Source of the DNA: Ureibacillus acetophenoni
Lineage (GTDB): Bacteria; Bacillota; Bacilli; Bacillales_A; Planococcaceae
Length of the DNA stretch: 64,000 nt
NCBI RefSeq assembly: GCF_900220965.1
Contig: NZ_OBQC01000009.1
Coordinates: forward strand, 1 to 64,000
Direction of reading: 5' to 3'
Shown: piece by piece, positions 36,536-55,830 of the stretch
Layout: each line of letters begins with the position of its first letter
Position numbering within the stretch: position 1 is the first letter of the stretch
Position numbers and translations under genes: made by a program
Notes under the pieces: generated by a model
The model's database searches: none
Told to the model about the DNA's origin: nothing
What the model saw: only the letters and a program-made list of their open reading frames with translations

Positions 36536-36679
36536 ATTAATAATTGATAGGAATGTGGGCGGGACAGCTATCTTCTAGTATCAACTGTAACTGACCTTAA
36601 TATTTTTTGTAAAATTGGCACTTTTCAAGTGGTCAATTAATACTAAACTAAAATTATTATAGGAATGGAGGTTATTTAC

Positions 36680-37561
36680 ATGATACAAGTTGGAACAGAT
36701 AGGGTAAAAAGTGGAATAGAAATACAAAAGGGTGGCGTTATTATGGACGTCATCAATGCTAAACAAGCAAAAATAGCAGAGGCAGCAGGTGCAGTGGCAG
36801 TAATGGCACTAGAACAGGTACCATCAGATATTCGTAAAGCTGGCGGTGTTGCTCGTATGGCTGATCCTCGAATTGTGGAAGAAGTAATAGGCGCAGTAAC
36901 GATCCCAGTTATGGCAAAAGCACGCATCGGTCATATTGTTGAAGCGCGTGTACTAGAGGCAATGGGTGTTGACTATATTGATGAAAGTGAAGTTTTAACA
37001 CCAGCTGATGAGGAATTCCATTTACTAAAGAGCGATTTTACCGTGCCATTTGTTTGTGGTTGCCGTGACTTAGGAGAAGCTGCGCGACGTATTGGAGAAG
37101 GAGCTTCTATGCTTCGTACAAAAGGTGAACCAGGTACAGGGAACATCGTCGAAGCAGTTCGTCATATTCGAAAAGTGAATGCTCAAGTACGTCGTGTCGT
37201 TGGGATGAGTACGGATGAATTAATGACAGAAGCAAAAAATTTAGGAGCCCCATTTGAATTATTACTGGAAATTAAACGGTTAGGTCGTTTACCAGTTGTG
37301 AATTTTGCTGCAGGAGGAGTTGCAACACCAGCAGATGCAGCGCTAATGATGGAATTAGGAGCTGATGGAGTTTTTGTTGGTTCTGGCATATTTAAATCAG
37401 AGAATCCTGAGAAATTTGCACGTGCCATTGTCGAAGCTACAACAAATTACAAAGACTATAAATTAATTGCTGAAATTTCTAAGGAACTTGGAACACCGAT
37501 GAAGGGAATTGACATTGCTACATTAAATGTAAATGAACGTATGCAGGAGCGAGGATGGTAG
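36680..37561 (+). CDS. pdxS: Pyridoxal 5'-phosphate synthase subunit PdxS
   Basis: 293 residues, the usual length, highly conserved. PdxS builds PLP from ribose 5-phosphate, glyceraldehyde 3-phosphate and ammonia. The two active lysines are Lys80 (VMAKARIGH) and Lys148 ([11 protein letters not shown]). The ATG at 36665 belongs to the ribosome site region; GGAGG then 9 bases gives the start at 36680 ([10 protein letters not shown]). The glutaminase partner gene pdxT, normally directly downstream, is absent from this window; a NADAR gene follows instead. Confidence 0.96.
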
Positions 37562-37599
37562 TAACCCAAATGTAAATGGCGAAACAAGGAGGAAATGTC

Positions 37600-38247
37600 T
37601 TGGCGAAGAGACCAATTTTCATTTCAAGTCCCAAATCTTCAATGTTATTTAAAAGGGAATTAATCGAATTTGAATGGTTTTCAGGTTTTTCTTTGAAACA
37701 AAAGCAAAGATCCATCCACTCCTTACATGATCGTGCTAGAGAAAAGTTCCCGGAAATTAAACTTCTTGAAATATCAAGTAAGTCAACTGAACAATTTGGT
37801 ATAGAACTTAGTGCATTTAATTTAATCATTAAAAAGAATAACATGAATTTTAGTGTAGAAACTGCATTCCAGGCAAGCAAGGTATTTGAACTTGCAGGTC
37901 CATTTTATGATTTATATGAAAAAAGCTCAAAGGAAGCAAAGAGGGATACGAGATTAAAAGAAAGTGGAAACCTTATAGCTTTCAGATATTTTGATAGGGA
38001 ATTTCCTATAAACCCAAAAACATTCTTCTATAACTGGCTATACATTAATACTTTGTCTACTCATCCTGATTTAGGAGAAAAAATAGTAGACTATGATGGG
38101 TTTACTGATATAGAGTTTAATCCGCATAAATCTATTAATTGTCAGGCAGAGGCAGCTGCAATTTACGTATCACTAGTGAAGAACAATCTATTAAACGATG
38201 CGTTGTCATCTCCGGAAGATTTTAAAAGTGCTGTTTATAATTACTAA
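37600..38247 (+). CDS. DarT1-associated NADAR-type antitoxin, no toxin gene adjacent
   Basis: 215 residues from a TTG with AAGGAGG seven bases upstream; an in-frame ATG at 37576 overlaps that site. Motifs FEWFSGFSLKQKQRSIHSLH, LEISSKSTEQFGIELSAFNL, VETAFQASKVFE, KTFFYNWLYINTL and DIEFNPHKSINCQAEAAA are, from memory, the DarT1-associated NADAR antitoxin family. NADAR enzymes remove ADP-ribose added to DNA guanine by DarT1. No DarT-like gene lies on either side, so it is an orphan here, 38 bases after pdxS. Confidence 0.75.
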   Translation: MAKRPIFISSPKSSMLFKRELIEFEWFSGFSLKQKQRSIHSLHDRAREKFPEIKLLEISSKSTEQFGIELSAFNLIIKKNNMNFSVETAFQASKVFELAGPFYDLYEKSSKEAKRDTRLKESGNLIAFRYFDREFPINPKTFFYNWLYINTLSTHPDLGEKIVDYDGFTDIEFNPHKSINCQAEAAAIYVSLVKNNLLNDALSSPEDFKSAVYNY

Positions 38248-38794: not shown

Positions 38795-38816
38795 GAATTA
38801 AGGACGAATTAAGGAC
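38795..38816 (+). promoter_or_regulatory. Tandem 11-bp direct repeat upstream of the transporter cassette
   Basis: GAATTAAGGAC occurs twice without gap (38795-38805, 38806-38816), 67 bases before the ATG at 38884. One helical turn per repeat suggests a protein-binding site, perhaps for the regulator at 42291. The rest of 38522-38883 is AT-rich without visible features. Confidence 0.4.
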
Positions 38817-38883
38817 GTGTCACTATTGGGAATTTTTTGATAAATTTGAATAAAGAATACTCAGGCAAAAGGGGGATGGCATT

Positions 38884-40137
38884 ATGGTTACAAAAGAAAA
38901 AGAAGTTACAGTTTCAGATTCTAAACCAAGTAGCGGAAATGGATTTTCAAAATTTTTAAAGATTTTAGGTCCTGGTTTAATTACTTCAGCATTAGTTTTG
39001 GGGCCAGGTTCAATTACATTGAACTCTAAAATCGGTGCAATTTATGGAACGGAATTAGTCTGGTCAATTATTGTGGCAGTCATATTAATGGCATGTTACA
39101 CAGAGATGGCCGCTAGAATCGGGATTGCAGGGAAAAGTACATTTATTAATCTTGTAAAGGAAAAATGGGGCCAATTTGCAGGAGTCTTTATCGGGATAGG
39201 TGCATTTTTAGTTTGTTCATCTTTCCAAGCAGGGAATGCTATTGGGACAGGTATTGCTATCGAAGCAGTGACTGGTGTTAATTCAAAAGTTTGGATCGTT
39301 GTCGCTACTTTATTAGGGGTTGCTCTATTATTCTTTAGTTCATTTTATAGAATACTAGAAAAGTTAATGTTGGCTTTAGTTATTGTTATGTTGTTCTCAT
39401 TTTTAATTACTTTAATTATCGTTAAACCTTCTATTACTGATGTTTTTAGTGGTTTTGTTCCAAAATTCCCTGATGGAAGTATGGCACTAGTAATAGGTCT
39501 TATTGCAACTTCGTTCTCAATTGTTGGTGCAATATATCAATCTTATTTAGTTCGTGAAAAAGGAGTAGTCCAAGCAAATGCAAAAGCAAGTATGTTTGAA
39601 TCCATATTTGGCATTTTCTTATTAGGTTTTATTTCATTTTTAATTATGATCACTGCTGCAACAGTTTTATATCCTGAAGGTATCATGGTTAATAACGCGA
39701 TTGAAATGGCAGATATTCTAAAACCTTCATTTGGAAGCTTTGCTGTATTTGTCTTTGTTCTTGGTTTATTTGGTGCTTCTTATTCCTCATTAATAGGAAA
39801 TGCCACAATTGGTGGTGGGTTATTAGCAGATGGTCTTGGTTTAGGACATCAATTATCATCTTTAAAAGTAAAAATTTCTATCATTGCTGTTATGCTTTTC
39901 GGATCTAGCATTGCATTAATCTTTGATGGTAACCCAGTGAACTTAATTACTTTTGCACAAGGTGTGACAATTTTCGTTGTACCATTTATCGCAATTGCAA
40001 TTTTATTCATTGCCAATTCGAAAGAAATTATGGGTGATATGAAAAATAGAATCTTCAGCAATGCACTTGGAATCATTGGTCTATTACTACTAATCTATCT
40101 AGCAGTTAATAACTTTATAAATATATTCTTAAAATAA
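38884..40137 (+). CDS. Nramp-related transporter lacking the metal-binding motifs
   Basis: 417 residues, about eleven membrane segments, Nramp fold by overall pattern (KILGPGLITSALVLG..). The canonical metal site DPGN in helix 1 reads GPGS here (residues 40-43), and the MPHN motif of helix 6 is absent (VGAIYQSYLV). It is therefore of the Nramp-related (NRX-like) type rather than a Mn/Fe transporter. It leads a cassette with an SDR, an aldolase and an oxidoreductase, so an organic substrate is likely (inference). AAAGGGGG lies before the ATG. Confidence 0.75.
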   Translation: MVTKEKEVTVSDSKPSSGNGFSKFLKILGPGLITSALVLGPGSITLNSKIGAIYGTELVWSIIVAVILMACYTEMAARIGIAGKSTFINLVKEKWGQFAGVFIGIGAFLVCSSFQAGNAIGTGIAIEAVTGVNSKVWIVVATLLGVALLFFSSFYRILEKLMLALVIVMLFSFLITLIIVKPSITDVFSGFVPKFPDGSMALVIGLIATSFSIVGAIYQSYLVREKGVVQANAKASMFESIFGIFLLGFISFLIMITAATVLYPEGIMVNNAIEMADILKPSFGSFAVFVFVLGLFGASYSSLIGNATIGGGLLADGLGLGHQLSSLKVKISIIAVMLFGSSIALIFDGNPVNLITFAQGVTIFVVPFIAIAILFIANSKEIMGDMKNRIFSNALGIIGLLLLIYLAVNNFINIFLK

Positions 40138-40151
40138 AAGGGGGATTTATT

Positions 40152-41171
40152 ATGGTAACTACTGTTGAACAACTTGAAGAATTTATGTCAATCCCATCTA
40201 AAACGTTAATAGAAGATGTGAAAAAACTTGATGGTGATTTTATTATTCTTGGAATTGGTGGGAAAATGGGTCCTACTCTAGCATATTTATTAAAAAATGC
40301 TATTGATGAAGCAGGTACAAATCAAAGAGTAATAGGTGTATCTAGGTTTTCTAATGATGATTTGAAAATACAGCTCAATTCAAAAGGGATTGAAACGATT
40401 TCTTGTGACTTATTAAATGACTCTGAGCTCCGAGAGTTACCTGTTGTTAAAAACGTTATTTATATGGCAGGTAATAAATTTGGAACAGCTGGTAACGAAC
40501 ATTTCACTTGGGCTATGAATAGTTATCTACCTGGCCGCGTAGCAGAGCATTATAAAGGATCTAGAATGGTCATTTTCTCTACAGGGAATGTCTATCCTTT
40601 ATCGGATGTAAAACTAGGCGGATGTGATGAATTGGTTTCGCCAGATCCAGTTGGAGAATACGGTCAGTCATGCTTAGGAAGAGAGCGAGTATTCACGTAT
40701 TTTTCTCATAGAGATAAAACGCCAATGTCAATTTTTAGATTAAACTATGCAATCGACCTTAGGTATGGTGTTTTGTTGGAAGTTGCAAAATCTGTTTATA
40801 ATGGCGAACCGGTGGATGTCACAATGGGTCATGTAAATGTTATTTGGCAAGGTAGTGCAAATGAGTACGCAATCAGGTCATTAATTCATGCATCGACACC
40901 ACCAACTATTTTCAACGCTACCGGTCCAGAGATATTATCAGTAAAATGGGTGGCAAATGAATTTGCAAAGTATTTTGAAAAGGAAGCAATAATTATAGGG
41001 GAAGAAGCGGAAACAGCATTATTAAGTAACGCTACAAAAGCTCATCGAATCTTCGGGTACCCCTCTGTTTCGATTAGAGAATTAATCGAATTAATAGCAA
41101 ACTGGATTCAAAACGATGGTGAGCTATTAAATAAACCAAGCCATTTCCAAGAGAGAAAGGGGCAGTTTTAA
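40152..41171 (+). CDS. NAD(P)-dependent epimerase/dehydratase-like protein with altered active site
   Basis: 339 residues with a Rossmann start ILGIGGKMGPTLAYLL near residue 33 and the extended-SDR layout. The Ser/Thr of the triad is present (FSTGNVYP, 143-144) and Tyr170 is in place, but the catalytic Lys four residues later is Cys174 (YGQSC). The enzyme may work on an unusual chemistry or bind only. It lies 14 bases after the transporter gene and directly before the aldolase gene (stop and GTG adjacent). Confidence 0.75.
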   Translation: MVTTVEQLEEFMSIPSKTLIEDVKKLDGDFIILGIGGKMGPTLAYLLKNAIDEAGTNQRVIGVSRFSNDDLKIQLNSKGIETISCDLLNDSELRELPVVKNVIYMAGNKFGTAGNEHFTWAMNSYLPGRVAEHYKGSRMVIFSTGNVYPLSDVKLGGCDELVSPDPVGEYGQSCLGRERVFTYFSHRDKTPMSIFRLNYAIDLRYGVLLEVAKSVYNGEPVDVTMGHVNVIWQGSANEYAIRSLIHASTPPTIFNATGPEILSVKWVANEFAKYFEKEAIIIGEEAETALLSNATKAHRIFGYPSVSIRELIELIANWIQNDGELLNKPSHFQERKGQF

Positions 41172-42224
41172 GTGCTTAGTAAAGTAGTTAAAGACAAACT
41201 AATGGACGGAGCATTTATTCCAGCCCATCCATTAGCACTATTTGAAGATAAAACGTTTGACGAGCTTTCACAACGACGTCTCACTCAATATTATATTGAG
41301 TCTGGGGTAGATGGATTAGCGGTCGGAGTTCATACAACACAATTTGAAATACATGATGATTTTTCTTTTTATCAAAAGGTTCTATCAACTGCTTTGGAAG
41401 AAATCCAAGCAAATGCATCTGCTGATTTCATTAAAGTTGCAGGTGTAAGTGGGGATGTAGAACAAGCTAAGAAAGAAGCACAATTTGTTAAAGATCTTGG
41501 ATACGATCTTGTACTATTAAGTAATAATGGACTCTCCCATTTTTCAGAAGAAGAACTGTTGGAAAGAGCAAAGGAAGTTGCATCAATTATTCCAATCATC
41601 GGTTTTTATCTACAAACTAGCGTTGGTGGTCGCGTTTTTAGTACAGAGTATTGGAAACAATTTTGTGAAATTCCAAATGTATTTGCCATTAAAATTGCAC
41701 CATTTGATCGTTATTTAACGATTGATGTTGCGAGGGCTGTAATGCATTCAAGTCGTCACGACGAAATAGCGCTATATACAGGGAATGACGATGCAATTGT
41801 ACATGACCTATTCACGGTCTTTGAAGAGGAAGTAGCAGGTAAGCTTCGTAAGAAAAGAATTGTTGGTGGTCTACTTGGCCATTGGGCAGCATGGACTTCG
41901 AAAGCAGTTGAACTTTTCCGTGAAATTAAAGAAGAACGAGAAAAAGAAGCGCTTAACTCAAAATGGATGACAGTTGCTCAACAAATAACTCATGTAAATG
42001 CAGCATTTTTTGACTCTCGAAATCAATTTAAAGGTAGCATTGCTGGTATAAACGAGATATTACGACGTCAAGGGTTAATTCGTTCAAATATTTGTTTGAG
42101 TGATCGAGAGGTATTGAGTAAAGGGCAATTAGAGTTAATTGATGAAGTGTATGAATTATATCCACATTTAAATGACGATGAATTTGTAAAACAATTCTTA
42201 ATAAATAACTCTACTAGAATTTAA
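41172..42224 (+). CDS. Dihydrodipicolinate synthase (DapA)-family aldolase/lyase
   Basis: 350 residues, TIM barrel of the DapA/NanA/KDG-aldolase superfamily. The Schiff-base Lys is Lys174 in FAIKIAPFDRY and the catalytic Tyr is Tyr146 in IGFYLQTS. It is longer than DapA (about 290), with a C-terminal extension after residue 290. The GTG start follows the previous stop at once, with AAAGGGG about ten bases upstream. Such enzymes cleave 2-keto-3-deoxy acids or related compounds to pyruvate; the substrate here is unknown. Confidence 0.8.
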   Translation: MLSKVVKDKLMDGAFIPAHPLALFEDKTFDELSQRRLTQYYIESGVDGLAVGVHTTQFEIHDDFSFYQKVLSTALEEIQANASADFIKVAGVSGDVEQAKKEAQFVKDLGYDLVLLSNNGLSHFSEEELLERAKEVASIIPIIGFYLQTSVGGRVFSTEYWKQFCEIPNVFAIKIAPFDRYLTIDVARAVMHSSRHDEIALYTGNDDAIVHDLFTVFEEEVAGKLRKKRIVGGLLGHWAAWTSKAVELFREIKEEREKEALNSKWMTVAQQITHVNAAFFDSRNQFKGSIAGINEILRRQGLIRSNICLSDREVLSKGQLELIDEVYELYPHLNDDEFVKQFLINNSTRI

Positions 42225-42233
42225 TAAATTAGT

Positions 42234-42272
42234 AATCGAATGGTTTATGATAGAATCATTCGATTATTTTTT
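42234..42272 (+). terminator. Terminator after the transporter-SDR-aldolase genes
   Basis: AATCGAATG (42234-42242) pairs with CATTCGATT (42257-42265), then ATTTTTTATTT. Confidence 0.85.
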
Positions 42273-42290
42273 ATTTGGAAGGTGGTTTGA

Positions 42291-43556
42291 ATGCTGAAGG
42301 TTGGCTTTATTGGTCCAAATTGGATAGAAAAAATGATGAAAAGTAGCTTCTCAATGTTTCCCAATATAGAGGTCATTTATCGATTGTCAGATGATATATA
42401 TGATGCTATTCCATTTACAGAAGAAATAATGAATGAAGTAGACTGTATTCTATATTCTAGCCGTGCAACTTACTTATTAGTGAACAACAATTTAAATCAA
42501 GCAATAAAGTCATACTATTTGCCTTTAAAAGGATCAGGCTTTTATGAAGCATTATTCTACTTAGTGAAAGATTATCAAATTGAATACATTAGTATTGATG
42601 GACTAGCTAAAGAGTATATACAGAGTGTTCTGGATCAAATAAATGGAATTGAATATGACATAGTAGAACATTTAGGAATTTTAGACGAGTACGAAAAAAT
42701 CGTGCAACGTCATTTTGAGGCTGTAAATGGTCGTTCTAATATAGGAATTATTACTTCCATAAAGAAGGTCAAGGATGCGCTTGATGAGAAAGGACTTCCT
42801 GTGGTTTGGTTAAAACCTACACAACAAGATATTATCGTTTGTATTGAACGTATCTTATTGTCTTCTTCACAAAGAAGGCAAAGAGAGAACCAGATGATTT
42901 ACGGAAAATTTATTATAGAATATACAGAAAAAACTGTACAAACGTTAAATAAAAAAGCCCGTATTAAATATAAATTAGAAAGAGCACTATATCACTTCGT
43001 TGATGAAATGTATGGATACATTATTCCGGTTAGTGAAGCGGAATATCATTTTATTGCTTACCGTGGTGATTTCGAGCGAATTACAGAAGGATATAAAATA
43101 TTAAATATTTTTAAAGAAATTAATCAATACCAAGAGTTGAGGATAAGTTTAGGTGTTGGATTTGGCATGTCTATACCCGTCTCAGTGTTTCATGCAGATT
43201 TGGCAGTGAGACAATGTAAACAACATTCATCAAATATTGCATTTATAGTCAATGAAGCAAGAAAAGTAATAGGTCCAATTATTATTAATATCCCTACCGT
43301 GTACCATCTAACAGATAACGAAAAAGAGTTTCAAAACAAGCAGATTGAAAAAATTAAGACTTATATACTTAAAAACAATCTAAGTTATTTTACTTCAGAT
43401 GAAGTAGCGATCAATTTAAACGTTACAAAACGTACAGCCAATCGTATTATATCCAGTTGGATGGATTCGGATTTGATTGAAGTTTATGGGTTAGAAAAGG
43501 TAAATGGTAGAGGTAGGCCAAGACAATGCTATATATTTAAGGGGGCAATATCGTGA
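42291..43556 (+). CDS. Second regulator with sensor-like, cyclase-fold-like and winged-helix parts
   Basis: 421 residues with the same three-part build as the gene at 7511. It opens MLKVGFIGPNW, has RISLGVGFGMSIPVSVFHADLAV near residue 286 and ends in a winged helix (SDEVAINLNVTKRTANRIIS) with GRGRPRQCYIF. No recognised family name. GGAAGGTGG precedes the ATG. It follows the terminator of the transporter genes and overlaps the oxidoreductase start (GTGA), so it is coupled to the latter. It probably controls this cassette. Confidence 0.65.
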   Translation: MLKVGFIGPNWIEKMMKSSFSMFPNIEVIYRLSDDIYDAIPFTEEIMNEVDCILYSSRATYLLVNNNLNQAIKSYYLPLKGSGFYEALFYLVKDYQIEYISIDGLAKEYIQSVLDQINGIEYDIVEHLGILDEYEKIVQRHFEAVNGRSNIGIITSIKKVKDALDEKGLPVVWLKPTQQDIIVCIERILLSSSQRRQRENQMIYGKFIIEYTEKTVQTLNKKARIKYKLERALYHFVDEMYGYIIPVSEAEYHFIAYRGDFERITEGYKILNIFKEINQYQELRISLGVGFGMSIPVSVFHADLAVRQCKQHSSNIAFIVNEARKVIGPIIINIPTVYHLTDNEKEFQNKQIEKIKTYILKNNLSYFTSDEVAINLNVTKRTANRIISSWMDSDLIEVYGLEKVNGRGRPRQCYIFKGAIS

Positions 43557-44410
43557 ATATAGGTTTGATTGGTAATGATACATCACACGTTGAGATTTTC
43601 TCTAGTATGTTACATGATATTGAACATCCATATTATGTTAATGATGCAAAATTTGTTGGTTTTATAGAATGCTATTCAGAGGATTTGCCGATTAGTCGAA
43701 ACCGAGCAGAAAAGTATAAACAAGTACTACATTCTTATTTAATACCTGAATATAAATCTATTCAGGAACTAAATGCTAGAGTCGACGCTTGGTGGATTAT
43801 GACGGTTGATGGAAGAAATCATTTAGATTGGTTTGTAAAGATAGTTTCCTTCCAAAAGCCCATTTTCATAGACAAACCAATGACCATTGGTTTGGACAAT
43901 TTCGACTTAATTGTAAAACAATCAGAAAAGTATCAAACACCTATTTTTTCCTCTTCTAGTTTACGTTTTAGTGAGATATTAAAGGAAATCGGTAATGATT
44001 TTGATTTTGTATATGCGTATGGTCCCTTACCATTACAAGAGAAAATGCCAGGCTACTATTGGTATGGAATTCATAGTTTAGAATGGTTGGATACATTATT
44101 TAATTGTGAACTAATTCATTTAAAAAGAAAGTGTTTTAAGCATTATGAAATCGTCGAGTTGCAATTTGAAGATGGTCGCCGTGCAATTTTTCGTGGGGAA
44201 TATGACTGGACTGATCAATTCGGTGGAATTGTGCACTATCATGGAAAATCTCCGAAAATACTTGATTTCTCGAAAATGGAAAAATCCTATTATGTTTCAT
44301 TATTAGATGAAGTTATACAATTTTACAAAAGTAAAAAGCCACCATTTTTAATCAACCAAACGAGAAGAATATTTACATGGATAGAAAAATTGGAGATACG
44401 AGATTGCTAG
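43553..44410 (+). CDS. Gfo/Idh/MocA-family oxidoreductase
   Basis: 285 residues. The N-terminal Rossmann part begins MNIGLIGNDTSHVEIFSSML and the family EKP-like motif appears as FIDKPMTIGL near residue 105. The second domain is short, with GYYWYGIHSLEWLDTLF. Relatives oxidise or epimerise sugars, inositols or sugar acids with NAD(P). GTG start overlaps the stop of the regulator. It is the last gene of the cassette. Confidence 0.8.
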   Translation: MNIGLIGNDTSHVEIFSSMLHDIEHPYYVNDAKFVGFIECYSEDLPISRNRAEKYKQVLHSYLIPEYKSIQELNARVDAWWIMTVDGRNHLDWFVKIVSFQKPIFIDKPMTIGLDNFDLIVKQSEKYQTPIFSSSSLRFSEILKEIGNDFDFVYAYGPLPLQEKMPGYYWYGIHSLEWLDTLFNCELIHLKRKCFKHYEIVELQFEDGRRAIFRGEYDWTDQFGGIVHYHGKSPKILDFSKMEKSYYVSLLDEVIQFYKSKKPPFLINQTRRIFTWIEKLEIRDC

Positions 44411-49825: not shown

Positions 49826-50710
49826 TTAGTAGCTAAAGTTCTTCTTATACGCTAACGGAGTCATCCCCATAGAACTTCTAAATTCCTTAATAAAATAACT
49901 TGTACTATTAAAACCAACCTGGTAAGCAACATCGGTAATTGTGTAATTTTCTTGTTGTAATAGGGAGATGCTTTTTTGAATACGATAATCAATCACATAA
50001 TTGACAGGTGAACATTTTAAGTAACGTTTAAAATAGCGACAACATTCCGAACGGCTCAACTGGCCTGCACGAGCGATATCCTCTAGCTTTATCTTTTCTG
50101 CATAATGCTCATGGATCCAACTGAGCATTTGCTTCATTCTCTGACTTTTTACGATTTCTGTCTGAACATATTCTAATTTAAATCCGTTATCGATTAAATT
50201 TTTCCAAATGTATGTTAATTGCATCGTTATGTCCATTTCATAGTAAGGTGGAGTTTGCTCAATATATTGATAAATTTTTAAAATTGCCTCTAAAATGTTT
50301 TTCCCCCAGTTTTTCTGTGCATCAATGTATAAATAGGGTAAATTGGTCGCTTGAATATACGGTTTAACATACCTCGTAAAAAGCTCTGGAGACAAAATAA
50401 AATAAGGTGAAACATTTAGGCAAATATAGACACAGTCCGATTGCTCTTTATCTTTTGCCATGTGTAAGCATTCACTATTAATAAATAATCCATCTCCTTG
50501 TTTGACAGCAATCCATTCTTCATTCACTTGAAAAATAGCTTCCCCTTTAACGATGTATACAAATTGAATTTCATCATGCCAATGGAGTGGAATGTGGCCA
50601 TGTATATGTTGATTGATGGTCGTTTTATAACATGCAATTGGCAAAACGACTGTTTGATGCTTCGTTAATTCTTTTAAATTTTCATCAATTAAGAAGTTTT
50701 TCATTTGCAT
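49826..50710 (-). CDS. AraC-family transcriptional regulator with cupin domain
   Basis: 294 residues. The N-terminal half is a cupin-like sensor (HIPLHWHDEIQFVYIVKGEA). The C-terminal double helix-turn-helix is typical: KLEDIARAGQLSRSECCRYFKRYL and YTITDVAYQVGFNSTSYFIKEFRSSMG. The ATG at 50710 follows GAGG with eight bases; a GTG three codons earlier overlaps that site. It is divergent from the carbamoylase/diaminopropionate operon and probably regulates it (inference from position). Confidence 0.9.
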   Translation of the reverse strand: MQMKNFLIDENLKELTKHQTVVLPIACYKTTINQHIHGHIPLHWHDEIQFVYIVKGEAIFQVNEEWIAVKQGDGLFINSECLHMAKDKEQSDCVYICLNVSPYFILSPELFTRYVKPYIQATNLPYLYIDAQKNWGKNILEAILKIYQYIEQTPPYYEMDITMQLTYIWKNLIDNGFKLEYVQTEIVKSQRMKQMLSWIHEHYAEKIKLEDIARAGQLSRSECCRYFKRYLKCSPVNYVIDYRIQKSISLLQQENYTITDVAYQVGFNSTSYFIKEFRSSMGMTPLAYKKNFSY

Positions 50711-50819
50711 GTCATCCACCTCAATATATTTATATTTTTCTATTCAATATTAGTATTAATTTTAAGAATATTCAATTAACATGATATTATCGTTACATTT
50801 ATTTAAAGGGGATAGATAT

Positions 50820-52073
50820 ATGAAAGCTACTAACATACCTCAAACAATCAACTCTGCACGTCTACTTTCACGACTTCAAGAACTCGGACGTATTGGTCTT
50901 GATAATGACAATATACGTACAAGATTAGCAGCTACAGATGAAGATAAAGCTGGACGTGACCAATTAATTAGTTGGATAAAAGAAGCGGGTTTGGAAGTTG
51001 AAATTGATAGAATTGGTAATATATTTGGAATTTGGACTACAGAAGAAAATAAATATGAAAAACCAATTATGCTAGGTTCGCACATCGACACTGTTATTAA
51101 CGCTGGAATGTATGACGGCTGTTATGGGGTGCTTTCAGGACTTGAGGTAATCAAAACTTTGCAGGAGAAAAGGTTTAAACCAGCTCGTCCAATCGCAGTT
51201 GCCGCATTTACAAATGAAGAAGGTGTTCGCTATCAGCCTGATATGATGGGTTCTCTTGTATATGCTGGTGGGCTTTCTGTTGAAGATGCACTTAATTCAA
51301 TAGGTACGGATGGCACTGTATTAGGTAAGGAACTTGAGCGTATTGGTTACGCAGGTTCGAAGGAGCCTGGTTTTATTAAACCTCACGCATACATTGAGCT
51401 TCATATTGAACAAGGTCCGATTTTAGATAAAGAAGGGACTCCAATTGGAGCGGTTGAAAATCTACAAGGAATTTCATGGCAACGTATTACGATTACAGGG
51501 GTTGCAAACCATGCTGGTACGACACCAACTGAAATGCGTCATGATGCAGGACTTGCGGCAGCGCGGGTGATCACTTATTTAAGAAATCGTGCTAATGCTT
51601 CAAATGGACAAACTGTAGCAACAGTTGGGACGATTTGTTTTGAACCCAATGCAGTAAATGTAGTTCCAGCTTTAGCAACATTTACAGTTGACTTACGTAA
51701 CCCGAACGAAGAGAGATTACAACAGGAAGAAGAAGCACTTGCAAACTACCTTAAAGAACTAGCGGCAGTAGAGGAAGTAACGATTTCAACTGAGCAACTC
51801 GTTCGGTTTTCACCAGTTACTTTCGATGAAAAGATCGTAAACGTGATTGAAGAAGCTGCTAGTAAACAAGGACTTCCATCAAAAAGAATGACATCTGGCG
51901 CGGGCCACGATGCACAAATGATTGCACGAATTTGTCCAACTGCGATGATCTTCGTTCCAAGTGTTGATGGGATAAGCCACAATCCTAAGGAATACACGAA
52001 AGACACAGATTTGGTAGCTGGAGCGAATGTATTACTTAATGTGGTGAGTAATCTTACAGGTATAGAAGAGTAA
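50820..52073 (+). CDS. Zn-dependent amidase/hydrolase of the allantoate amidohydrolase/N-carbamoylase group (M20)
   Basis: 417 residues. The motifs of the hydantoinase/carbamoylase (AllC/HyuC/beta-ureidopropionase) group are GSHIDTVINAGMYDG, FTNEEGVRYQPDMMGS, ELHIEQGPILD, NHAGTTPTEMRHDAG and SGAGHDAQMIA. It cleaves N-carbamoyl or ureido groups from amino acids in the cytoplasm. An upstream in-frame ATG at 50781 has no ribosome site; AAAGGGG precedes the ATG used. First gene of an operon with an M20D hydrolase and diaminopropionate ammonia-lyase. Confidence 0.88.
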   Translation: MKATNIPQTINSARLLSRLQELGRIGLDNDNIRTRLAATDEDKAGRDQLISWIKEAGLEVEIDRIGNIFGIWTTEENKYEKPIMLGSHIDTVINAGMYDGCYGVLSGLEVIKTLQEKRFKPARPIAVAAFTNEEGVRYQPDMMGSLVYAGGLSVEDALNSIGTDGTVLGKELERIGYAGSKEPGFIKPHAYIELHIEQGPILDKEGTPIGAVENLQGISWQRITITGVANHAGTTPTEMRHDAGLAAARVITYLRNRANASNGQTVATVGTICFEPNAVNVVPALATFTVDLRNPNEERLQQEEEALANYLKELAAVEEVTISTEQLVRFSPVTFDEKIVNVIEEAASKQGLPSKRMTSGAGHDAQMIARICPTAMIFVPSVDGISHNPKEYTKDTDLVAGANVLLNVVSNLTGIEE

Positions 52074-52097
52074 GTTTGTTGGAGGTAGAGTATAAAC

Positions 52098-53249
52098 ATG
52101 ATAGATTTGAAACAACAGTTAGTAGAATGGCGCTATCATTTGCATCAGTATCCTGAAACGGCATTTGAAGAAGTGAAAACTTCAGCTTATATTGCAGAAG
52201 AGCTGAAAAAGATGGGGCTAGAAGTTCATGGAAATATCGGTGGTACAGGTGTTGTCGCTAACCTTACTGTCGGAGATGGTAAGGGTGTCATTGGGTTACG
52301 AGCGGATATGGATGCATTAAATTTAAATGAAATAAAAGATCATCCATACCGTTCGCAACATCCTGGGAAAATGCATGCATGTGGTCACGATGGACATATG
52401 ACAAATCTACTTGGTGCTGCAAAACTGCTTTCAGAACGAAAAAACTTTAATGGAACAGTTCGATTTATTTTTCAACCTGCTGAAGAAATCGGTAAAGGTG
52501 CGGAAGCGATGATTAATGATAAATTGTTTGAACGCTTTCCAGTAGACGAAATTTACGGATTACACAATATGCCTAATTTACCTGTTGGGACGATTCACAC
52601 TCGACCAGGTCCAATCATGGCTAGTGAGGATAACTTTGTCATTCGTATTAAGGGAAAAGGCGCCCACGCATCGAGTCCACATATGAGTGTTGACCCCTTA
52701 GTTATCGCAGCAGAAATTATCCTTGCTCTACAAACAATCGTTGCGAGAAATCTTGACCCTATTGAAACAGCAGTGGTGTCATGTACAGAAATTCACACCG
52801 ATGGAATTAGAAATGCAATTCCTTCAAACGTGGAAATCAAAGGGGATACGAGAAGCTTTAAACTGGAAGTTCAAAAATTACTTGAAGATCGAATGAGAAA
52901 AATTTGCGAAAGCATTTGCGAAATGTATGGCGCTGAATGCGAGTTTGAATATACCCATGAATTTTCACCTACGATTAATTGGGATGAATGCAATAAGATC
53001 GCGACAATGGCTGCGCAAAACATTGTTGGTGAAAAAAATACAAACAGTGATTGTGCTCCATTTATGGCATCTGAGGACTTCGGTAAGTTTCTCGAAACCA
53101 TTCCGGGCTGTTTTGTTTTCCTAGGTGTTAAAAATGAGGGAGAGGAATTGATTCCTCTACACAACCAGCTCTATGATTATAATGATGAAGTTTTAGTGAT
53201 TGGTGCTGAATTTTTGGCAGAAATAGTTCAGATACGCCTTTCTAAATAA
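52098..53249 (+). CDS. M20D-family amidohydrolase
   Basis: 383 residues with RYHLHQYPETAFEE-like start, GLRADMDALNL, MHACGHDGHMT (metal ligands), QPAEEIGKGAEAM (catalytic Glu), IKGKGAHASSPH and MASEDFGKF. It probably hydrolyses N-acyl or amide derivatives of amino acids. GGAGG lies about twelve bases before the ATG, a long spacing. It is 24 bases after the carbamoylase-like gene and 23 before dpaL, so the three are one operon. Confidence 0.87.
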   Translation: MIDLKQQLVEWRYHLHQYPETAFEEVKTSAYIAEELKKMGLEVHGNIGGTGVVANLTVGDGKGVIGLRADMDALNLNEIKDHPYRSQHPGKMHACGHDGHMTNLLGAAKLLSERKNFNGTVRFIFQPAEEIGKGAEAMINDKLFERFPVDEIYGLHNMPNLPVGTIHTRPGPIMASEDNFVIRIKGKGAHASSPHMSVDPLVIAAEIILALQTIVARNLDPIETAVVSCTEIHTDGIRNAIPSNVEIKGDTRSFKLEVQKLLEDRMRKICESICEMYGAECEFEYTHEFSPTINWDECNKIATMAAQNIVGEKNTNSDCAPFMASEDFGKFLETIPGCFVFLGVKNEGEELIPLHNQLYDYNDEVLVIGAEFLAEIVQIRLSK

Positions 53250-53272
53250 TATAAGAAATGGGGTAAAACAAA

Positions 53273-54466
53273 TTGAAATTAGTTAAATTTGATCGCAAAA
53301 CTGAAGGGAAAACTGATATTCAATTTTTAAATTTGGAAGAAGCAAATAATGTTCACAAGTTCCATAAAAGCTTCCCACAATATGAACCGACACCGTTAGC
53401 TGTTTTAGACAATCTAGCAAAAGAGCTGGGAGTTTCAAAGATTTTCGTAAAAGATGAATCCTATCGATTTGGTTTAAATGCTTTCAAGGCATTAGGTGGA
53501 TCTTTTGCAATTGGACACTACCTAGCTGAAAAGTTAGAAATTAATCCAGATGAATTAACCTATGACAAGCTCGTTTCACCTGAAGTGAAAGAAAGATTAG
53601 GAGAATTAACATTCATTACAGCAACAGATGGTAATCATGGTAGAGGAGTAGCTTGGACAGCAAAACAGCTACAACAAAAATCAGTTGTTTATATGCCAAA
53701 AGGGTCATCTGAGGAAAGATTAAACCATATTAAAAACGAAGGTTCAGATGCATCCATTACGGAGGTTAACTATGATGATGCAGTTCGCTTAGCGGCGCAA
53801 CATGCAGAGCAGAATAACTGGGTACTAGTTCAAGATACGGCTTGGGAAAACTACGAAGAGATTCCGAAGAAAATTATGCAAGGATATATTACGATGGCCT
53901 TTGAAGCTTATGAACAGCTTAAAGAATCAGGCGAAAAGCCAACTCATATCTTTATCCAAGCAGGCGTGGGGTCAATGGCAGCGGCAGTTCAAGGCTTCTT
54001 TGCAAATGTATATGGAGACGACCGTCCAATTACAGTTGTCGTGGAACCAGATAAAGCAGATTGCATATTTAAAACAGCCGAAGCCAATGATGGAACGTTA
54101 CATTTCGTAAAAGGCGACATGGATACAATTATGGCGGGACTAGCATGCGGTGAACCAAGTACGCTAGGTTGGGAGATTTTAAAGGATTATGCCGATGCAT
54201 TTCTATCATGTCCTGACAATATCGCGGCCCAAGGAATGAGAATTTTAGCTGCGCCTATCAAAGATGATGCGCAAGTAATTTCAGGTGAATCTGGTGCAGT
54301 TGGAGTAGGTGCTGTTAGTGAACTCGTTAGAAAAAGTGAATACGCACAACTAAAAGAACAACTACAAATTAATTCCGACTCAAAGATTTTATTCTTCAGC
54401 ACAGAGGGCGATACAGATGCTGAACATTTTAAAAAGGTAGTTTGGGATGGAGCGTATTCCGTTTAA
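53273..54466 (+). CDS. dpaL: 2,3-diaminopropionate ammonia-lyase
   Basis: 397 residues, PLP enzyme of the YgeX/DpaL type, which converts 2,3-diaminopropionate to pyruvate and two ammonia. The PLP lysine is Lys72 in RFGLNAFKALGGSFA; TATDGNHGRGVAW and IFIQAGVGSMAAAVQGFF are typical. TTG start with GGGGT upstream. Together with carbamoylase and M20 hydrolases it suggests use of carbamoylated, acylated or oxalylated diaminopropionate, comparable to the E. coli yge cluster (family knowledge; inference for this strain). Confidence 0.92.
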   Translation: MKLVKFDRKTEGKTDIQFLNLEEANNVHKFHKSFPQYEPTPLAVLDNLAKELGVSKIFVKDESYRFGLNAFKALGGSFAIGHYLAEKLEINPDELTYDKLVSPEVKERLGELTFITATDGNHGRGVAWTAKQLQQKSVVYMPKGSSEERLNHIKNEGSDASITEVNYDDAVRLAAQHAEQNNWVLVQDTAWENYEEIPKKIMQGYITMAFEAYEQLKESGEKPTHIFIQAGVGSMAAAVQGFFANVYGDDRPITVVVEPDKADCIFKTAEANDGTLHFVKGDMDTIMAGLACGEPSTLGWEILKDYADAFLSCPDNIAAQGMRILAAPIKDDAQVISGESGAVGVGAVSELVRKSEYAQLKEQLQINSDSKILFFSTEGDTDAEHFKKVVWDGAYSV

Positions 54467-54474
54467 GTTAATTT

Positions 54475-54511
54475 AGCTAGGTTCCTTTAGAGCGGGCCTA
54501 GCTTTTTTATT
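54475..54511 (+). terminator. Terminator after dpaL
   Basis: AGCTAGG (54475-54481) pairs with CCTAGCT (54497-54503), extended by TCC/GGG, then TTTTTA. Confidence 0.78.
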
Positions 54512-54573
54512 TTATTATCCATATCTATTATAATTACTAGAATAGTATTTTTTTCCACAAAGGGGGAATGGAA

Positions 54574-55830
54574 ATGTATTACGAGAATTTACGGAATAAA
54601 TTAATTCAAGAAATAAACGAGAAAGAAGGTTTTCTAGTAGAGCTTTGTTCAAAGCTAGTGAAAATCCCAAGTGAATCTCCAACCTCTGATACACAAGAGT
54701 TAGTGGAAATAATTGTAGAGTTTTTACAGGGAATTGAAGGGGCAGAAGTGTCGGTTCATACATTGGAAGAACCTATTCAAAATATAGTAGCTCGCATTAA
54801 AGGGTATGGTCCTGGCAAACGTTTAATTTTCAACGGCCATTTAGATACCTATCCAGTTGGCGATCCAAAGGCATGGACAGTCAATCCTTTTGGTGAGTTG
54901 AAAGATGGAAGGTTATATGGTCGTGGATCCTCTGATATGAAGGGTGGCATTGCATCCTATTTATTAACTTTTATGATTCTAGCAAACTATCGTAGTGAAT
55001 GGTCTGGGGAAATTGTATTAACCCTTGCTGGAGATGAAGAAACGATGGGGGGAAAAGGAACAAAATTTCTTCTAGACACCGTTCCAGAAGCTACTGGTGA
55101 TGCGATGATTTGCGGAGATGTGGGCTCGCCATTAGTATTGCGTTTTGGGGAGAAAGGCTTGTTCTGGCTTGAGTTGAATGCGGTCGGGAAACCTGGTCAT
55201 GGTGCACATGTGCATAAAGGAGTCAACGCGATCGATCGACTCGTTGAAGGCATTACTAAAATTAATGAAACCCTAAGAAAATTACCAGTTCAGCACGATG
55301 AGATGGTAAGAAGTGCGATATTGACAGCAAGCGAAATATCCGAAGAAATTTCCGGTAGGGGAGAAACGGAAGTTTTACAGAGCGTTACGGTGAACTTTGG
55401 TGAAATTGAAGGCGGAACATCTCCAAATCTAATTCCAGCCAAGGCAACAGCAAGAGCGGATATTCGAATACCTGTAGGAACAACGATTGCACAAGTGAAC
55501 GAAAAAGTGAAGGAAATCGTAGATTCAATAGAAGGATTGTCTTATAAAGTTCTACGTCAATATGAACCGAACTTTTCAGATGTAAATCATGAAATTTTCT
55601 CCTTAACAGCCCAAAACGTTCAAGAAATTATGGGGAAATCACCTGTAATCACAATGCGAGTTGGCGCATCGGATGCCCGCCACTATCGAATTTCTAAGCA
55701 AGTCCCAACAGTTGTATGTGGACTCACGCCATATAACCTTGGTGGGCCGGACGAATATATTGAGTTGGACGAACTGCTTGATGTTGCAAAGATTCATTTG
55801 TTGACTGCTATTGATTTTCTATCTAATTAA
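54574..55830 (+). CDS. M20-family hydrolase (ArgE/DapE/YgeY-like)
   Basis: 418 residues. Motifs are FNGHLDTYPVG (metal His and Asp), RGSSDMKGGIAS (bridging Asp), LAGDEETMGGKG (catalytic pair), KPGHGAHVHKGVNAI in the lid and a late RVGASDARHYRI. This fits the ArgE/DapE branch, which includes YgeY next to DpaL in E. coli. GGGGG lies seven bases before the ATG at 54574; an ATG at 54568 is too close. A terminator separates it from dpaL, so it may have its own promoter. Confidence 0.85.
   Translation: MYYENLRNKLIQEINEKEGFLVELCSKLVKIPSESPTSDTQELVEIIVEFLQGIEGAEVSVHTLEEPIQNIVARIKGYGPGKRLIFNGHLDTYPVGDPKAWTVNPFGELKDGRLYGRGSSDMKGGIASYLLTFMILANYRSEWSGEIVLTLAGDEETMGGKGTKFLLDTVPEATGDAMICGDVGSPLVLRFGEKGLFWLELNAVGKPGHGAHVHKGVNAIDRLVEGITKINETLRKLPVQHDEMVRSAILTASEISEEISGRGETEVLQSVTVNFGEIEGGTSPNLIPAKATARADIRIPVGTTIAQVNEKVKEIVDSIEGLSYKVLRQYEPNFSDVNHEIFSLTAQNVQEIMGKSPVITMRVGASDARHYRISKQVPTVVCGLTPYNLGGPDEYIELDELLDVAKIHLLTAIDFLSN

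Follow-up and report, generated by a model that had tools for sequence, protein, structure and literature searches.

In Corynebacterium glutamicum, growth on 5-oxoproline requires PxpT, a protein of the NRAMP family, and the authors leave metal transport by PxpT possible (PMC13274462). Import of Mn has been reported for Bacillus subtilis YcsG/MntG (PMC10448178); the two papers disagree on whether carriers of the YcsG/PxpT type take metal or organic cargo. A 2026 preprint describes the Nramp-related groups as paraphyletic and those besides the NRMT-like and MntG-containing groups as 'entirely uncharacterized' (PMC12873925). Here we describe a further Nramp-related carrier, encoded in a 64,000-nucleotide stretch of the Ureibacillus acetophenoni genome (contig NZ_OBQC01000009.1, positions 1 to 64,000; hereafter the window). 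Five + strand genes (38884-44410) encode, in order, the carrier, a protein of extended short-chain dehydrogenase/reductase (SDR) fold, a class I aldolase, a transcription regulator and a Gfo/Idh/MocA-family protein. We consider it rather probable that this cassette, taken as a whole, is a catabolic operon under operator control, whose Nramp-fold importer brings in an organic compound that is cleaved to pyruvate.

The cassette shares with pxpTABC a non-canonical Nramp-related protein, a predicted operon for a small organic acid and a regulator of its own (PMC13274462). It differs in that its carrier falls in a separate clade, that Pfam finds no 5-oxoprolinase gene in the cassette, and that the genome has its own YcsG-type gene on another contig. 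This gene (contig C9, 78815-79783; L146) lies beside PxpA-, PxpB- and PxpC-type genes and is the sole other Pfam Nramp in the genome (G000), in which the same search finds no canonical MntH. The original prediction, made from the letters of the window, knew no described pathway with this set of genes; likewise, full-text searches of one open-access library listed no description of the cassette, and the available part of PMC9007349 mentions neither dihydrodipicolinate, DapA nor Nramp.

Gene order and the Nramp-related carrier

The five genes (Table 1) are separated by gaps of 14, 0 and 66 bases and joined by one 4-base overlap; the tight packing first described thus stands, with an upper gap of 66 bases in place of 65. 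To compare relatives, an aldolase-profile scan with one genome per species gave at least 549 confirmed candidates, of which the best 80 were used. Clustering of neighbour genes in these, with the window included, identified a core of SDR (72 of 81 loci) and aldolase (77 of 81). Merging near-identical loci reduced 104 to 98, and in the counts over these 98 loci genes are named by our own cluster profiles (>60 bits), named families having been checked on representatives only. The window order of all five genes occurs at 11 of the 98 loci, the window counted in, the order Nramp-SDR-aldolase at 27 and SDR-aldolase at 90. Because the five-gene order and the SDR-aldolase pair recur in this way, the cassette is more than a chance arrangement. 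Relatives with 93% and 79% aldolase identity keep the five-gene order, while in one with 55% (G034) an M20 gene separates Nramp from SDR and a Gfo gene was not called; the closest named aldolase relatives among the matches listed are from Ureibacillus, at 92% identity. That the five genes constitute one operon is well supported by these data.

The carrier is an Nramp protein by Pfam (240.5 bits) and aligns with MntH structures, one of them presumably from D. radiodurans, over residues 19-411. It departs from canonical Nramp proteins at their metal ligands, DPGN in transmembrane helix 1 (TM1) and MPH in TM6. In TM1, DPGN becomes GPGS, with Gly at the Asp position and Ser, or Lys in some clade members, at the Asn position; in TM6 the motif is absent, as the original prediction had also noted, and Ser or Ile, according to how one gap is placed, stands where MntH has Met. 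In an alignment read by eye, the acidic residues of MntH in TM3 align with Gln115 and Asn118, each position being at least 93% conserved among 32 proteins. The TM1 motif is GP[GS][SK] in 30 of the 32 Nramp cluster members. The original prediction took metal transport by the carrier to be improbable, which is plausible.

Phylogeny also sets the carrier apart. In a 60-protein tree, 30 cassette proteins and four proteins from a Pfam search form one well-supported clade of 34 rows (100/100). Canonical MntH (9 rows) lies apart from it, as does a YcsG-type clade of 6 rows (100/100), which places the carrier outside the PxpT/YcsG clade; this tree has several long branches and an arbitrary root, and its input kept one in three canonical Nramp rows and left out L114 and L115 as duplicates and any NRMT row. 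A PxpA-type neighbour was found by Pfam for four of the six YcsG-type rows, those four being the ones checked. In phmmer the carrier scores 77.9 bits against 7qia, which we take to be EleNRMT, below the 90.9 bits for MntH. Among 121 Bacilli genomes, a cassette-type Nramp occurs in six (G000, G022, G034, G079, G122 and G142), all of them among the 14 SDR-positive genomes (p 8e-7). The two remaining cluster members, L042_07 and L065_13, have GTGS in TM1 and branch outside the cassette-type clade; they were retained in the tree and left out of the later Nramp profile. These belong to a different Nramp-related type, found at the Bacteroidota loci L042 (6339-7580) and L065 (16394-17632), where the gene adjoins a NagA-type gene and a NagB-like gene, respectively.

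Table 1. Features of the cassette and its flanks in the window
Feature	Position	Strand	Evidence
Probable operator: direct repeat TTAAGGAC, 11-base period, and degenerate inverted half-site	38798..38826	+	Upstream motif search
Nramp-related carrier without metal-site motifs, GPGS in TM1	38884..40137	+	ORF list, Pfam, MntH alignment, tree
Extended-SDR-fold protein, Rossmann GxGGKMG; Asn123/Ser143/Tyr170 kept; Cys in place of Lys at Tyr+4	40152..41171	+	ORF list, alignment, structural model
DHDPS/NAL-superfamily class I aldolase; Lys174 Schiff base and Tyr146 by alignment	41172..42224	+	ORF list, Pfam, NCBIfam, PDB
Terminator-like hairpin and T-tail, aldolase/regulator intergenic	42231..42268	+	Hairpin scan versus shuffles, relatives compared
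Transcription regulator: PrpR_N-like sensor 1-196, degenerate GGDEF/cyclase-like 200-336, winged helix about 341-416	42291..43556	+	ORF list, structural model
Gfo/Idh/MocA-family protein; DxSH, KP, WYGIH motifs conserved	43553..44410	+	ORF list, Pfam, alignment

Core enzymes and regulator

A catalytic SDR is defined by a Rossmann motif and an Asn-Ser-Tyr-Lys tetrad (YxxxK). In the cassette family the Rossmann glycines are kept and Asn123, Ser143 and Tyr170 are present in 72 of 72 proteins, but the lysine at Tyr+4 is found in none (Cys in 60, Ser in 7, Thr in 2, Val in 2 and Ala in 1). The second gene had been predicted to encode a dehydrogenase-type enzyme; with the catalytic lysine missing throughout the family, it is no ordinary one. 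Like the regulator, this protein has no Pfam family at E<=0.1. Its structural model (pLDDT 94.7) matches TerB and sugar-nucleotide epimerases, the best match being TerB (TM-score 0.76 by query length, 22% identity), which, unlike the cassette proteins, aligns a lysine at Tyr+4.

The third gene encodes a class I aldolase, as predicted. With 36.6 bits, above the Pfam DHDPS cut-off, it belongs to the DHDPS/NAL superfamily, a TIM-barrel family, and both the Schiff-base Lys174 and the catalytic Tyr146 are retained in 77 of 77 proteins; the assignment of these predicted catalytic residues is well supported. While it shares the Lys and Tyr with NanA and DHDPS, it is about 50 residues longer and has near-invariant motifs of its own (HTTQF, TGNDD and GGLLGHW). 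NanA is its best NCBIfam and PDB match, and its identification as an N-acetylneuraminate lyase was rejected at 33.3 bits versus the equivalog cut-off of 382. The Gfo/Idh/MocA protein has the Rossmann domain and Lys-Pro of its family (Pfam 27.1 bits versus a cut-off of 24), with K108 and P109 invariant in 18 aligned proteins and the WYGIH motif retained. An NCBIfam match to 'anti-phage protein' was dismissed (19.1 bits versus 370), and PADLOC gave no defence gene.

Class I aldolases are reversible, and SDRs of the sugar-nucleotide epimerase fold are common in biosynthesis. The aldolase and SDR might on these grounds serve synthesis, by condensing pyruvate with an aldehyde, or detoxification in place of catabolism, which we regard as very unlikely, given that the linked importers, the deacetylase- and kinase-type neighbours and the PrpR_N-type regulator suit uptake and breakdown.

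In PrpR-type sigma-54 activators, the PrpR_N domain precedes a sigma-54 AAA+ domain. In the model of the cassette regulator (pLDDT 85.9, pTM 0.50), the N-terminus adopts the PrpR_N fold (Z 16.4 against 2q5c and 15.4 against 2pju). Where PrpR has its sigma-54 ATPase part, the model shows a degenerate GGDEF/cyclase-like domain (Z 12.4 against GTP cyclohydrolase III) and then, at the C-terminus, a winged helix assigned from modelled secondary structure and weak family matches. The regulator had been singled out as unusual, and the model agrees; among the papers listed by a search of one open-access library, none deals with this layout, judged by titles and abstract openings. A second copy of the regulator family occurs at L021 (1829-8574), after two M20 hydrolases and an M20-like protein and before a transporter that presumably is like AbgT, suggesting that the family serves N-acyl amino acids as well.

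Between the aldolase and regulator genes lies one of four terminator-like sites in the window, where shuffles gave an expectation of 2.4 (s.d. 1.7). The same hairpin is found in L005 and L006, other hairpins occupy this place in some relatives, and none lies between the two genes in L007 and L022. The window hairpin could possibly attenuate the two downstream genes.

Probable operator, transporter forms and cargo

Upstream regions of the cassettes share the motif TTAARGAC-N3-TTAARGAC, with a period of 11 and usually followed by an inverted half-site; its longer form is TTAARGAC-N3-TTAARGAC-WTGTCTTTAA. The window site ends 57 bases before the Nramp start codon and is the sole match at two mismatches or fewer in the 3.98 Mb genome; two more places match with 3 mismatches, the reversed control matches at one, and the zero mismatch of the window site is by construction, the R positions having been widened after it was seen. 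The longer pattern has no match within 3 mismatches in this genome because the third half-site is degenerate there. We consider 38798-38826 a probable and well-supported operator of the operon.

The site follows the regulator across loci. A score of at least 19 before Nramp or SDR was obtained at 33 of 43 scored regulator-positive loci, redundant loci included, versus 0 of 56 regulator-negative loci and 0 of 43 shuffled ones (1 and 9 loci were left unscored). It stands before Nramp at 14 of the 17 regulator-positive Nramp loci and before SDR at 19 of the 26 other regulator-positive loci. Among held-out Bacillota loci, a site precedes Nramp or SDR at 13 of 21 with a regulator and at 1 of 29 without one (p 6e-6). 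SDR relatives were found by whole-genome search in 28 of 299 Bacilli genomes, and 15 of the 21 genomes with the longer pattern are among these 28 (p 2e-13); by our own count, the reversed control is present in 20 of the 299, of which 3 are SDR-positive (p 0.4). These data support the regulon link, in which the regulator would bind the 38798 site. At L169 the site lies between M20 and SDR genes. In genome G153 (L232 1501-2757), an operator-like site lies 100 bases before an enolase-superfamily gene unlinked to the cassette; proteins that read as the same type are encoded directly after the aldolase gene (L055) and in a neighbouring ABC/Gfo operon (L016). Among named families, those nearest to the G153 protein include dehydratases and racemases of acid sugars, each match scoring under its cut-off; this would fit a route to a 2-keto acid. 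Carbon-catabolite (cre) sites were considered and rejected as a common control: one-mismatch sites precede Nramp or SDR at 5 of 23 loci (<1 expected from shuffles), are unconserved and are absent from the window.

Two types of transporter accompany the same core. Within 10 kb, cassette-type Nramp occurs at 33 of the 98 loci (30 without ATP-binding cassette (ABC) permeases) and both ABC permeases at 35 (32 without Nramp), so that one type or the other is present at 65 and both at 3 (Fisher p 1e-4, without tree correction). On representatives, the permeases and binding proteins are of the BPD_transp_1 and SBP families. The site precedes the Nramp operon at Nramp loci and the SDR operon at ABC loci. 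Of the Bacillota loci with an ABC binding-protein gene, 9 of 18 regulator-positive and 1 of 8 regulator-negative ones have the site before that gene. The comparison of homologous neighbourhoods that the original prediction proposed thus shows Nramp rarely beside an ABC importer, and one operator able to serve both.

The ABC form often comes with extra genes. MDR, FAD oxidoreductase and IolE-like genes lie with ABC at 18 of 21, 11 of 13 and 9 of 12 loci, respectively, and within 10 kb of Nramp at none (0/21, 0/13 and 0/12). The two forms may accordingly differ in cargo, the ABC importer taking a larger glycoside that the MDR, FAD and IolE-like enzymes trim and Nramp taking the small shared intermediate itself. 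In agreement with this, the L030 binding protein comes closest to oligosaccharide types, though under their cut-offs, whereas lineage could also account for the pattern, the extra enzymes being concentrated in related Bacillota in the tree. We give this possibility somewhat less than an even chance; it is a refinement of uptake of an organic compound by the carrier and not its opposite.

Alternatively, the carrier could bring in Mn or Mg, a divalent metal on which one of the pathway enzymes depends, with the organic substrate entering through another, unlinked transporter; this we consider unlikely. M20 hydrolases, which are metal enzymes, are neighbours at 9 of the 33 Nramp loci, whereas we know of no protein among the five of the window cassette that comes from a family known to require metal. 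Precedents for metal cargo exist: over-expression of B. subtilis YcsG/MntG raised cellular Mn (PMC10448178), Nramp relatives in urea and 5-oxoproline operons have a claimed metal role (PMC10448178; PMC12873925), and EleNRMT transports Mg (PMC12873925). A metal role retains some probability because YcsG/MntG, a reported Mn importer, is likewise a G-motif relative. Against it stand the change of the TM1 Asp and Asn to Gly and Ser (or Lys) and of the TM6 Met to Ser or Ile, and the finding that the Nramp gene is seldom with ABC importers, some of which share its operator. Because relatives have the same control site before sugar-type importers and the metal residues are lost, the data suggest that the carrier brings in a nutrient and no metal. 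Organic cargo is also favoured because of the precedent of PxpT on 5-oxoproline (PMC13274462), and on balance we lean towards it as the better reading.

Several observations weigh against uptake and breakdown of an organic compound under this operator. The SDR is without the lysine that ordinary dehydrogenase chemistry needs, no gene common to all loci fixes the substrate, and YcsG is reported to import Mn (PMC10448178). At 33 of the 98 loci neither Nramp nor ABC permeases lie within 10 kb, and in a tree-aware test, from which one short aldolase was left out (98 to 97), the exclusion of Nramp and ABC rests on 7 independent pairs only and is not significant; the ABC-operator difference by itself is not significant either (p 0.10). 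As for the operator, many of the loci used to derive the motif are closely related, and some of the tested loci had already been seen when the pattern was relaxed. A site before Nramp or SDR is missing at 8 of the 21 held-out regulator loci, four of which (L173, L175, L184 and L186) carry one before the regulator gene; the five-gene near relative L006/G022 (79% aldolase identity) has no clear site (best score 16); and sites occur with no called regulator nearby in L075, L068, G142 and G262. In total, the 299 genomes contain 25 sites versus 22 reversed-control matches, the excess being confined to SDR-positive genomes.

Substrate clues come from neighbours. Within 10 kb, raw counts over the 98 loci are 42 for Gfo3, 36 for Gfo2, 20 for M20, 12 for NagA, 11 for a ROK kinase and 8 for NagB-like, which leaves the amino-sugar neighbours in a minority, a further point against. 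At representative loci NCBIfam places NagA over its cut-off and NagP under its cut-off, and N-acyl-amino-acid hydrolases are the nearest match for the M20 protein encoded at L052. In the Acidobacteriota locus L198, GH92, GH9, GH94 and nitrilase-family genes flank the SDR-aldolase pair; the Acidobacteriota and other later loci are named by profile only and stand outside the 98. Together, the neighbours point to amino sugars or N-acylated acids, and no one reading suits all loci. The sugar-acid-like substrate first proposed is still in play, with amino-sugar or N-acyl compounds indicated equally. Separately, the Bacteroidota Gfo2 was considered as a canonical GH109; its best PDB matches are entries named dehydrogenase and DgpA, and the claim was dropped.

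Two other regions of the window were noted. A separate cluster at 49826-54999 encodes, by Pfam, an AraC-family regulator, two M20-family proteins and a PALP-family enzyme that we take to be like diaminopropionate ammonia-lyase. At 36665-38247 lies what is presumably a PdxS-like gene, followed by a gene unlike PdxT.

A candidate route to pyruvate

The cargo, substrate and order of reactions that seem best to fit are as follows. The Nramp-fold (LeuT-fold) carrier would take up a small organic molecule, an acidic sugar or amino-sugar derivative being the likeliest, and the SDR-fold and Gfo/Idh/MocA proteins would rearrange or oxidise it to a 2-keto acid. The aldolase would cleave this acid, via the Lys174 Schiff base, to pyruvate and an aldehyde. 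The PrpR_N domain of the regulator may sense a pathway intermediate, perhaps with nucleotide gating at the cyclase-like domain, and the regulator would govern the operon via the TTAARGAC repeats. In relatives, a carbohydrate-type ABC importer, often with extra oxidoreductases, would feed the same core, in part under the same operator.

The SDR-aldolase core itself recurs across phyla, being found in Bacillota, Bacteroidota, Acidobacteriota and Chloroflexota. In the phylum of one Bacteroidota genome, SDR matches occur in 8 of 247 genomes (5 of them above 270 bits), and in the phylum of one Acidobacteriota genome in 11 of 149 (6 of them above 380 bits). A wider proposal, which we put forward tentatively and with some doubt, is that an Nramp branch was recruited as an importer dedicated to a sugar that is acidic or N-acylated, perhaps a nonulosonate or amino-sugar acid, for a multi-phylum pathway with a core of lysine-less SDR and new aldolase. 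In Bacillota, a regulator of a new type, with PrpR_N, cyclase-like and winged-helix domains, would govern this pathway by reading TTAARGAC repeats.

The cassette thus offers an undescribed candidate route to pyruvate, together with an SDR family that lacks both the lysine and any Pfam match, and a regulator for which a binding site is proposed. The choice between metal and organic cargo is directly testable here because one operator and one regulator are combined with two transporter types and one two-enzyme core. A further Nramp-related clade would belong to a regulon for catabolism where ABC importers of sugar type can stand in for the carrier.

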